The position numbers and the translations under genes are program-made. A stretch of 64,000 nucleotides of DNA from Paracyclopina nana (lineage: Eukaryota > Arthropoda > Copepoda > Cyclopoida > Cyclopettidae), in the NCBI GenBank assembly GCA_019096065.1, contig JAGUCH010000003.1, forward strand, positions 2,976,001-3,040,000, written 5' to 3'. This document shows, one piece after another, positions 26,578 to 30,755 of this stretch; positions within the stretch are counted from its first letter, which is position 1, and each line of letters starts with the position of its first letter. The notes under the pieces are model-generated. The model had not been told where the DNA came from. It saw only the letters and a list, made by a program, of their open reading frames with translations, and made no database searches.

Positions 26578-29500
26578 CTATGAGGCTTCATGCGGCTCAG
26601 GCAAGACTTCCCAAGAAGGTTCAACTCCCCAGATCTCTCGCCCATACTCAGCAATGGTACGATCAGAGCTGAATTTGCCAGCAGATGCCACGTTCATGAT
26701 GGCCATCTGTGCCCACTTGGCTCCATCCTGAAACATATCATTGCCACATACTCTAGCTATGAAATATTGTTATAGCAGTATACCATATAAGTTGCATTGA
26801 CTTTGTCTTGGGCAGCGATGTAGCTGTCATAGTCTGCCAAAGTTAAGTATTGGTCATGATACAGCAAGTTGTTCTTGATGTCGATGAACTCGTCTGGGTT
26901 GCCACTTTTGGAGAAAGTGCCATTTCCAAGCTGCTCAATGACTTGGGCCAACTCGGGGTTCTTGGCTACATAATCCGCAGCGTTGTAGCCAGCTCGTTTC
27001 AGTGCTTCAACTTCCTCAACGAGCATTCCAAAGATGAAAATGTTCTCTTCACCCATCTCCTCGGCCATTTCCACATTGGCACCGTCCATAGTTCCAATGG
27101 TCAAGGCACCGTTAAGCTATAATTTTAAATCATGAAATCTGCGAAGCTTGAAAGGAACTCATGGGCTTACCTGGAACTTCATGTTGCCAGTTCCAGAGGC
27201 CTCTGTGCCAGCAGTGGAGATTTGCTCAGACAAATCTGAGGCTGGCATGATGATTTCAGCATAGGAAACCCTGTAGTTCTCGAGGAAGACCACCTTAAGC
27301 TTATTGCCCACATCGGGATCATTGTTGACCTTTTCAGCAACACAGTTGAAAAGCTTGATGATCTGCTTGGCCATGTAGTATCCGGGTGCAGCCTTGCCTC
27401 CAATCATGACAGTCCTGGGCACGATTTTCTTATCCTTGGGATTGGCCTTGATCCTGTTATACATGGTGATGACATGCAAGATGTTAAGCAGTTGCCTCTT
27501 GTACTCGTGGATCCTCTTAACCTATATACATACAATGAAAAACGAGACTGTATGAATATCATTCATATTTTGGGCAAAATTCAGCCGTACCTGAACATCA
27601 AAAATGGAGGCTGGATTCACTTGCACGCCAGTCTTCTCGGTCAAATAGGCGGCCAACTTGCGCTTGTTGGCAGATTTGACCTCCATGAATTCACGTTGGA
27701 ACTTGGGGTCGGTGGCAAAAGGCTTCAGCTTGGTGAGCTGATCCAGATGAGACGGCCAGTCATCGCCAATTTTGTCAGAAATGAGGTCAGACAGCATGGG
27801 ATTGCACATCAGCAACCACCTCCTTGGGGTGATTCCGTTTGTCTTGTTCTGGAACTTCTCAGGCCACAGCTCATAAAAGTTCTTGAAGAGTGTTTGCTTG
27901 ATCAGCTCAGAATGCAGCCTTCAAGGAGATTGACAATGCAGTTATATAGGTAATATTCAAGCATCATGACGTTTACCTAGCAACACCATTGATGGCGTGA
28001 GATCCGACAATGGCCAAGTGGGCCATATTAACCCTCTTTCCACCTTCCTCTTCAATGATTGAGAGCACTCTCATCTTGTCAAAATCATTGTTGTACACCT
28101 TGGCCACATACTCCATATGGAAGTGGTTGATTTTGTAGATGATCTCCAAATGCCTTGGCAGGAGGTTTTGCATGAGATCCACTGGCCAACGCTCAAGAGC
28201 CTCTGGCAAGATGGTGTGGTTGGTGTACGCACAGCATTTCCTGGTGATATCCCAAGCCTAAACACCAATTTGTGACACTCGTTATATTTAATATGACCAA
28301 ATTACTCACTTCTTCCCACTTGAGACCCTCTTCGTCGACGAGGATTCTCATAAGCTCAGGGACAGCCAAAGCTGGATGGGTGTCATTCAACTGAATGGCA
28401 ACCTTATCGGGCATGGTTGTGAAGTCAGTCCTGGCAACCTCCCTTGATCCAAACTTGGAGTGCTTGAACCTGAAATTACTTAGATGAGCACTACTATCAT
28501 TTTAAGATGATCTGCCATGTGTGTACCTCCTGATGACATCCTGGAGAGTGGCTGAGCACAGGAAGTACTCTTGCTTCAGCCTCAGCTCTTTTCCTCCAAA
28601 GTTGTTATCGTTGGGATACAAGACCCTGGAGATGTTTTCGGCAATGTTCCTGTCAATGACAGCATCCAAGTAGTCGCCATCATTGAAGAATTTCAAGTTG
28701 AAGTTCATGGGAGATTTGGCGGACCACAATCTCAAAGTGTTGACAACATTGTTGTTGTAGCCTATATAAAATGTTTCATTAGTGTACGCTATTCTCATTT
28801 GGAGCGCATTTCTCAACCAACCTGGAATGGGATTGTCATAGGGCATCGCCAAGACAGTTTGTTGGTCCACCCATTGGCGAGCATCCGGCTTGTCCGGATT
28901 GTCAATGCATCTGCCATAGAACTTGACCTCCAGCATGTACTCTGGCCTGGCCTTTTCCCAGGGGTTGCCATACCTCAACCAATCGTCAGGCTCCTCAATC
29001 TGAATGAAAATTAGCCATTAGAATACTTTTCATAGAATATTTTTATTTTTTGCCTTCATTGAACGCCACAGCAATAAATTTAAGTTGTCACTTACTTGCT
29101 CGCCATTAACAATTTTTTGATCAAAAATGCCGTAATCATAGCGAATTCCATAGCCATAGGCAGGCATGGCCAATGTGGCCATGGAGTCCAAGAAGCAGGC
29201 AGCCAACCGGCCGAGGCCGCCATTTCCAAGGCCAGCATCGGGCTCATGGTCCTGGAGCTCTTCGATGTCCATGCCAAGCTAAATTGGTTAGATCAAACAA
29301 AAGCACTCGTGTTAATCAAATAATATGGGTGAAAACACTCGTTAAAGTTAGCATGACGTACTCGCGTTAAGAAACTCTCTACACACACTCGCGGCATTAA
29401 CCTGCTCGCCATTGACAATCTTTTGCGTGAAGATGCCATAGTCGTATCTAATGCCGTAGCCATAGGCTGCCATGCCAAGAGTGGCCATGGAGTCTAAGAA

Positions 29501-30755
29501 GCAGGCAGCCAACCTGCCCAAGCCTCCATTTCCGAGGCCAGCATCGTCTTCCATTTCTTGCAGCTCTTCAATGTCCATGCCCAACTAGAACCCAAAAGCT
29601 AACTTGTACCTTCACGCCTCTTTTAAAAATAGCTATTCACATTTGTACTTTGGGCATGGGGAGCTTATTAACCCAAGATACAGCGCTGTACTCTTATGAG
29701 ATCAATGATTACCTGATACATGGCCTCGTCACAGGCTCCTTGGATGCCAATGTTGATCATGGTGTTTTGCAGGGCCCTGCCCATGTAAAACTCCAAGGAA
29801 ATATAGTAGACTCTCTGTAAGGAAAAAAGAAGGCATCCATGTTAGGCTCGAATATTTTAGGTACGTGATTTCAGCAACCGGTTTGACAACTATGCTATGC
29901 TGCACCTTTGCTAAGAATGGCCAAATCAAGTCCTCGTATTTCATGCAACATTACTATGATTTTAATAGTTTTCTTTATTAACCATAGCGCGTGATGATCT
30001 CGAGTTTATGAACATCAAAAAATATTTTCATGATTTTTAAAGTACAGAGAGAATGTATCATATGAGTGTCTAAAATAGTACACTTAATTTTCAGTGCAAG
30101 TATTTCTTGATGTTTGTGCATGACAAAGTTCAAGGAAGTGAAGAAAAACGAGTTTTGGGCACATTTTGACCAAATGAAGTGCCCAGCCAAAATGTTATTG
30201 AGCATTTTCGTGTTAAAATCCACGTGCAATAAATGACAGCTCCATTTTCGTATGCTGCAATACCCAATAGTGAAAAATAACCAATGTCATCCTCATGCGA
30301 ATAACCTTGAGTGACCTCTTGACTCGTTACGCATGGATTTTCCACCCTAGCTTAAAACTGAATCAAATTGCACTTGCAGTAAATGACAGCTCCAATTTCG
30401 CATTCTGCAATACCCATACGTGAAAAAATAACGATTGCCATCCCTGCGCGAATAACCTTGAGTAACCTCTAACCTCTCGACTCACCTTGGGGTCCGTTTC
30501 GTACCACTTTTGCTGGGTCCTGATCCACCTGGCGACCAGCCTATCCTTGACGCTGTGGGCCAAGGAGAAGTAGTAGTCCCTGGTGGTGGCCACATTGCGG
30601 TCCTTGCACAGGGTGTAGTGCAAGTGTTGCGTAAAGGCTCTCTTGAGGTCAGCCACGGATTCCACGGTGGCAATGGCACGCACAGAAATCTGCTTGCGCC
30701 TGTCCCTGTCCCCATCAGCTTGAGGCTGAGGCTGAGCTTGCATACAATCACTCAT
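26578..30755 (-). CDS. GlyP: glycogen phosphorylase
   Basis: Exons: 30755-30486, 29814-29713, one of 29584-29402 or 29278-29096, 28999-28822, 28761-28527, 28469-28310, 28257-27977, 27918-27591, 27521-27171, 27116-26784 and 26727-26578. Using one copy of exon 3 gives 856 residues, the family's usual length. It releases glucose-1-phosphate from glycogen with pyridoxal phosphate; the PLP lysine lies in EASGTGNMKF. Ser24 in RRKQISVRA matches the phosphorylase-kinase site Ser14 of the muscle enzyme, so hormonal control is likely. Exon 3 exists in two versions that both splice in phase 0. Intron 1 (670 bp) contains a tandem duplication of its own donor-side sequence. Confidence 0.97.
29096..29278 (-). 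other. GlyP: GlyP alternative exon 3b
   Basis: 183 nt, phase 0, 123 bp downstream of exon 3a. It differs from 3a at about 6 of 61 residues: LQDHEPD instead of LQEMEDD, LAMPAYGYG instead of LGMAAYGYG, and IFDQK instead of IFTQK. The loop DAGLGNGGLGRL is unchanged. There is no stop or frameshift, so it looks functional. Confidence 0.85.
29402..29584 (-). other. GlyP: GlyP alternative exon 3a
   Basis: 183 nt, phase 0 at both ends, with good GT and AG sites. It encodes the substrate-loop segment DAGLGNGGLGRLAACFLDS and, after it, LGMAAYGYG and IFTQK, as in most animal phosphorylases. It replaces or is replaced by exon 3b. Confidence 0.85.
30223..30486. repeat. tandem duplication inside GlyP intron 1
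   Basis: About 110 bp at 30223-30335 is repeated at 30373-30486, sharing TAAATGACAGCTCCA, CTGCAATACCCA and GCGAATAACCTTGAGT. The second copy runs up to the exon 1 donor itself; the first carries a decayed version of that donor region. Confidence 0.75.

Follow-up and report, generated by a model that had tools for sequence, protein, structure and literature searches.

Glycogen phosphorylase is a classic allosteric enzyme, and copepods are tiny crustaceans that are abundant in marine plankton. The phosphorylase gene of the copepod Paracyclopina nana displays two neighboring exons, termed here 3a and 3b, that encode the same segment of the protein. Does this gene give rise to two forms of the enzyme, and if so how might they differ? 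The window analyzed is the whole stretch of 64,000 nucleotides from contig JAGUCH010000003.1 in which the gene is found. The reading that we consider likely is that the two exons are an old, mutually exclusive pair from which two full-length enzymes arise, and that regulation of the 3b enzyme may be shifted.

The gene and its third exons

The glycogen phosphorylase gene is complete on the minus strand at positions 26578–30755 and consists of 12 exons, 11 of which enter a transcript with a single copy of exon 3 (Table 1). The frame is open with either copy and the translated sequence is 856 aa in both cases. The profile search gives 10 matches to the PF00343 family along the gene (best 7.1e-61). 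All 10 family matches reported among the best candidates scored in the 91.95-Mb, 10-contig assembly fall in this one gene, and no second phosphorylase gene is present among the matches listed from the profile search and the DNA search of that assembly. The DNA search of the whole assembly reports exon 3 copies 3a and 3b only. The N-terminal Ser14-type site is common to the predicted 3a and 3b isoforms. Introns 4–10 are 52–69 nt in length.

Table 1. Positions in the window of the phosphorylase exons, the introns around the exon pair and the candidate pairing elements.
Feature	Position	Strand	Remarks
Exon 1	30486..30755	-	start codon and Ser14-type site RRKQISVR
Exon 2	29713..29814	-	
Intron 2 (exon 2 to 3a)	29585..29712	-	128 nt; contains the candidate docking element
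Candidate docking element CCATGCCCAA	29650..29659	-	in intron 2; 10-nt perfect complement of the exon 3a start
Exon 3a, Ala type	29402..29584	-	183 nt, 61 codons, phase 0/0; PYGM residues 115–175
Candidate selector TTGGGCATGG	29575..29584	-	first 10 nt of exon 3a
Intron 3 (3a/3b spacer)	29279..29401	-	123 nt
Exon 3b, Pro type	29096..29278	-	183 nt, 61 codons, phase 0/0
Candidate selector GGCATGG	29269..29275	-	start of exon 3b; 7-nt pairing with the docking element
Exon 4	28822..28999	-	first constitutive exon beyond the pair
Exons 5–7	28527–28761, 28310–28469, 27977–28257	-	
Exons 8–11	27591–27918, 27171–27521, 26784–27116, 26578–26727	-	
Stop codon TAG	26578–26580	-	end of exon 11

The preliminary description of this DNA reported two 183-nt exons of the same phase, 123 bp apart, that differ at about six residues and have intact splice sites. 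This is confirmed. The exons encode the same 61-residue segment with six changes from 3a to 3b, i.e. E10D, M11H, D13P, G37A, A39P and T53D, which are positions 124, 125, 127, 151, 153 and 167 in PYGM numbering (the offset was set by alignments to solved structures). All four flanking splice sites are GT/AG; the contexts are ..GGTTCTAG/..CAG/GTTAAT for exon 3a and ..CAATTTAG/..CAA/GTAAGT for exon 3b, and the junction coordinates given earlier agree with the exon model made here.

The nucleotide sequences of 3a and 3b differ at 39 positions and 26 of these are third codon positions. The values obtained are pS 0.63, pN 0.10, dS 1.36, dN 0.107 and dN/dS 0.08. A repeat search finds one 193-nt direct repeat with 79% identity that covers the pair and is far beyond chance. 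The introns flanking 3a and 3b are dissimilar, with 11/40 and 13/40 identical positions, thus the similarity is confined to the exon. Given these dS and dN/dS values, the pair is old and both copies are constrained. An assembly artefact or a haplotig was also considered and is ruled out by the dS value together with the unrelated flanking introns.

The phosphorylase TAG is followed by 21 open codons (EGRFKEILVPSPIPEEEEDED) up to a TAA (26512–26580, minus strand). These form a possible read-through tail; an open stretch this long is not unusual by chance. Two adjacent and similar RNase T-type exonuclease genes (23192–23830 and 25012–25698, minus strand) lie immediately downstream of the phosphorylase gene. 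The upstream neighbor at 31825–33360, also on the minus strand, shows matches to Cep192 domains 4 and 8, and judged by these domains it appears to be a Cep192-like centrosome gene.

Related proteins and the history of the pair

Of the 7996, 7995 and 7998 candidates scored in three protein searches, the best 120 each were taken, which together comprise 241 distinct proteins. The third search selected for likeness to 3b. Proteins of odd length or with duplicated segments (P0001, P0002, P0003, P0121, P0122, P0124 and P0174) were kept out of the alignment, which contains the other 234 and the two P. nana isoforms; P0020 and P0240 were additionally kept out of the backbone tree on account of gaps. 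The P. nana phosphorylase is found in a clade of 38 rows with support 1.0, i.e. 36 database proteins and the two P. nana isoforms. This is termed the copepod clade: its named members are Tigriopus californicus (two isoforms) and Lepeophtheirus salmonis (two records), and the other 32 rows are presumed to be from copepods. P0240 is nearest to the clade (85.5%) and is counted as outside. Clade counts use the 36 database rows and exclude the P. nana isoforms.

Among the matches listed, the closest sequences on the rest of the protein are P0008 (85%), P0006 (85%) and P0009 (82%), with Lepeophtheirus salmonis at 66%–71%. P0006 and P0008 have a single exon 3 of the Pro type; their sequences of 2.8–2.9 kb barely exceed the coding length and are thus presumably from mRNA. 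T. californicus is the nearest named relative, with 78% identity on the rest of the protein among the named species computed.

The same Ala/Pro pair, in the same exon of the same gene, is present in T. californicus. Isoforms X1 (P0123) and X2 (P0038) are 100% identical outside of exon 3 and 78.7% identical within it, where X2 is of the Ala (3a) type, LGMAAYGYG, and X1 is of the Pro (3b) type, MGMPAYGYG. An older gene model, P0003, has the Ala exon followed directly by the Pro exon with end points as in P. nana. Thus a second copepod has the exon pair in this order and with these boundaries. A search of related genomes for the duplication had been proposed as a check, and the T. californicus isoforms support from outside the window the proposal of alternative isoforms. 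The Tigriopus pair is known from annotation records alone, and the X1 and X2 records look like automated annotation. Unlike P. nana 3b, exon 3 of X1 has one extra residue and an acidic residue at position 127.

Exon 3a displays the standard animal sequence, with an acidic residue at position 127 and Ala at 153; exon 3b has a non-acidic residue at 127 and Pro at 153. Within the clade, 25 of the 36 rows have Pro at 153 and 11 have Ala or Gly (26 and 12 if the P. nana isoforms are included). Residue 127 is non-acidic in 24 of the 25 Pro rows, Tigriopus X1 being the exception, and in one of the 11 others (P0146). Outside of the clade 44 of 198 aligned proteins have Pro and 154 have Ala, proportions that are not population frequencies since similarity to 3b was part of how the sample was chosen. 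Non-acidic 127 is found in 29 of these Pro rows, including four named bacterial rows and one spider, versus two of the Ala rows. The earlier statement that Pro is common at this position in plant and bacterial enzymes holds in this partly selected sample. The pairing of positions 127 and 153 has a Fisher p of 4.6e-7 within the clade (36 rows) and 1.7e-21 outside, values which ignore shared descent. Fifteen Pro rows outside of the clade, Anopheles and beetles included, retain acidic 127, as does Tigriopus X1; thus Pro 153 alone is not a sign of lost regulation.

Two further sets of rows are of note. P0218 and P0226, which are outside of the copepod clade and nearest to insect rows, display LAMPAVGYG together with a non-acidic 127, and Val replaces Tyr155; by these residues they appear to be another lineage with a 3b-like state. 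P0183, from the spider Parasteatoda tepidariorum, has IPAHGYG and a non-acidic 127 like the bacterial rows, and is 66% identical to the nearest rows of the set.

Among the 241 listed proteins the segment motif is found twice only in P0001, a fish model with identical copies, and in P0003, which fits the view that most animals encode this segment once. Of the 37 clade proteins from the database, 36 have one copy of exon 3 and only P0003 has both. The proposed exclusivity is supported by these single copies, but it is not proven, as P0003 has the two exons together.

The history of the pair was analyzed with trees of exon 3. In an earlier, smaller set of 30 clade rows and seven outgroups, all 18 Pro exons, P. 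nana 3b included, group together with support 0.67. P. nana 3a is placed in one group with Tigriopus 3a, P0013 and P0017 (support 0.88), in conflict with the tree built from the remainder of the protein. In the second subclade, the Ala and Gly exons fall into two separate groups, neither of which is joined to P. nana 3a. AU tests used quick tree searches on 27 of the 38 clade rows, near-identical rows having been thinned, and three outgroups. The backbone tree is rejected for exon 3 (p 0.0014 with all columns, 2e-5 when column 153 is removed and 4e-5 when 151 and 153 are removed), as is expected where two paralogous exons would be sampled. Trees with the two exons of one species as sisters are not rejected, either for P. 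nana (p 0.155 with the full set, 0.234 without 153 and 0.297 without 151 and 153) or for Tigriopus (0.234, 0.125 and 0.575, respectively). A single Pro clade has the best likelihood of the compared trees in the full set. When column 153 is removed it is 3.9 log units under the free tree, and when 151 and 153 are removed the two are level. With the full set a constrained tree scored better than the free one, which shows that the tree search was not exhaustive.

Between clade members, exon 3 identity minus backbone identity has a mean of +5.6 over the 198 same-type pairs and −0.8 over the 180 pairs of different types. P0139 and P0143 (Pro) are 91%–93% alike to P0146 (Ala) in the backbone and 79%–80% in the exon, hinting that the pair may be present in the second subclade too.

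These comparisons favor one ancient duplication as the better reading. That each copepod lineage duplicated the exon independently and gained Pro by convergence appears unlikely but carries some weight; this alternative concerns the history and would leave the reading of the splicing intact. It would be consistent with an identity of just 77% between P. nana 3b and Tigriopus 3b, and with the failure of the AU tests to reject either lineage-specific tree. However, order and boundaries are the same in the two species, E124D and A153P are shared, the exon tree sorts by type, and the tree with one Pro clade is the best in the full set, although its standing falls when column 153 is removed.

Choice of exon and possible effect on the enzyme

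In the proposed mechanism each mRNA would take 3a or 3b and never both, so that a single gene would encode two enzymes of full length. By this comparison of sequences, alternative use of the P. nana exons is close to certain and their mutual exclusion is probable. Inclusion of both exons gives a protein of 917 aa and skipping of both gives 795 aa. Both are in frame, thus decay of faulty mRNA fails to explain exclusion. Crowding fails as well, because intron 3 is longer than introns 4–10. No U12-type donor is seen by eye at the splice sites of the pair.

A candidate docking element in intron 2 could pair with the start of either exon and in this way set the choice. An exact match as long as the 10-nt complement to 3a arises in one of 1000 shuffles when the first 20 nt are considered and in 10 of 1000 when the whole exon is, and one as long as the 7-nt complement to the start of 3b in 71 of 1000. 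The extended duplexes have −25.0 (3a) and −18.7 (3b) kcal/mol and are matched by 9/200 and 8/200 shuffles, respectively. The remaining intron/exon pairs have longest exact complements of 6–8 nt, given here as raw lengths. The pairing was noticed after folding of the region, and the starts of 3a and 3b are alike anyway because the exons are homologous. The fold of the whole region is no more stable than shuffles (z −0.90), and no known RNA family is found in the window at the gathering score. The arrangement resembles the docking/selector model described in the available part of PMC6071210. Control of exon choice by the intron 2 pairing is suggestive but speculative.

Three TTAAC..GAGT motifs are found in intron 3 itself (29370, 29345 and 29315), with a looser version at the 3a donor; they are approximately 25–31 nt apart. 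A relaxed form of the pattern is found nine times on both strands of the whole window, three of them within intron 3.

Exon 3 contains the G-loop, GNGGLGRL, which is unchanged between 3a and 3b. Against solved chains, 3b scores about 8 bits below 3a in each of the 23 from liver, muscle and brain (e.g. brain 96.5 vs 104.5, liver 93.5 vs 102 and muscle 91.0 vs 98.7 bits). The other solved chains are divided: 13 of 23 score higher with 3b, by 1.6–6.6 bits, e.g. yeast (88.0 vs 82.2) and the chloroplast L-1 isozyme (75.9 vs 69.4), and 10 of 23 score lower, e.g. the E. coli maltodextrin phosphorylase (64.7 bits vs 69.2 for 3a). Thus 3b departs from the mammalian form and approaches some, but not all, of the other forms.

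Since the G-loop and DAGLGNGGLGRLAACFLDSMATL are unchanged and the sites on either side of them change, it is regulatory coupling (Ser14 phosphorylation, AMP) that 3b may alter, rather than catalysis; the 3b form would have its regulation retuned with the chemistry retained. Tyr155 is two residues from the changed site 153 and may contact AMP directly. In the part of PMC9081730 that was available, none of the AMP-site residues listed is within exon 3 and Tyr155 is absent from the list. Any effect of exon 3b on the AMP response would therefore be indirect.

Three other explanations of the pair have to be weighed. It is very improbable that only one exon is used and that the other is a functionless duplicate, either recent or in decay. 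The P. nana pair is known from genomic sequence alone, which leaves room for this, but a dN/dS of 0.08 at such a dS and the intact frame and splice sites of both copies argue against decay, and both types occur in the T. californicus isoforms and in other clade proteins. Normal inclusion of both exons, giving the 917-aa enzyme with a duplicated segment, we regard as extremely improbable. The exons are in frame, a 123-nt intron is long enough for splicing, and the early Tigriopus model P0003 has both; against this, nearly all clade proteins have a single copy and the NCBI isoforms of Tigriopus have one each. A duplicated segment would also probably disrupt the fold, because the segment holds the G-loop. 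The exons may also be truly alternative with a functionally neutral choice, the changes being tolerated drift. As the six sites lie outside of the catalytic loop and several insects tolerate Pro 153, this has something in its favor, but the pairing between residues 127 and 153 is seen repeatedly across the clade (by the Fisher test above, which ignores descent) and dN/dS between the copies is low. It is improbable on balance.

A mutually exclusive pair with a retuned 3b form is therefore retained as the preferred reading. The two diagnostic sites of 3b, 127 and 153, match bacterial-type enzymes. A broader proposal is that copepods, perhaps since their common ancestor, keep a switch borne by splicing, with a regulated 3a form, a 3b form largely uncoupled from AMP and phosphorylation, and a choice made by the intron 2 pairing. 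This broader proposal is doubtful.

Comparison with known systems

Full-text literature searches, with most subscription journals outside their scope, found no paper on a phosphorylase exon pair among those listed. Hatje and Kollmar in 2013 reportedly surveyed Drosophila, and a phosphorylase pair may be mentioned there. The pair of this gene is apparently undescribed in print, although the NCBI isoform records of Tigriopus already contain it, and exon pairs of this kind are known from pyruvate kinase and phosphofructokinase.

PKM1 and PKM2 arise from mutually exclusive exons of pyruvate kinase, and as given in the available part of PMC7954323 the likeness is close: a single metabolic enzyme gene, two alternative exons, and changes at allosteric or interface sites. 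The enzyme is a different one, however, and the effect on FBP binding is established for PKM where the regulatory effect in phosphorylase is inferred. Alternative exons are also described, in the parts of the sources seen, for phosphofructokinase, i.e. PFKP (PMC7954323) and the Drosophila Pfk cluster (PMC6071210). This again is an allosteric enzyme of carbohydrate metabolism with mutually exclusive exons, arthropods included, but the enzyme and the segment differ.

The two versions of the exon probably allow the animal to make enzymes that are tuned in two different ways. A natural isoform pair that differs at six residues, none of them in the G-loop, offers a clean test of residues 124–127 and 151–153 in regulation. 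In mammals the liver, muscle and brain phosphorylases are encoded by separate genes, according to the portion of PMC9081730 available, whereas P. nana has one gene with alternative exons. If the preferred reading is true, splicing in this lineage would do the job of these separate mammalian genes.
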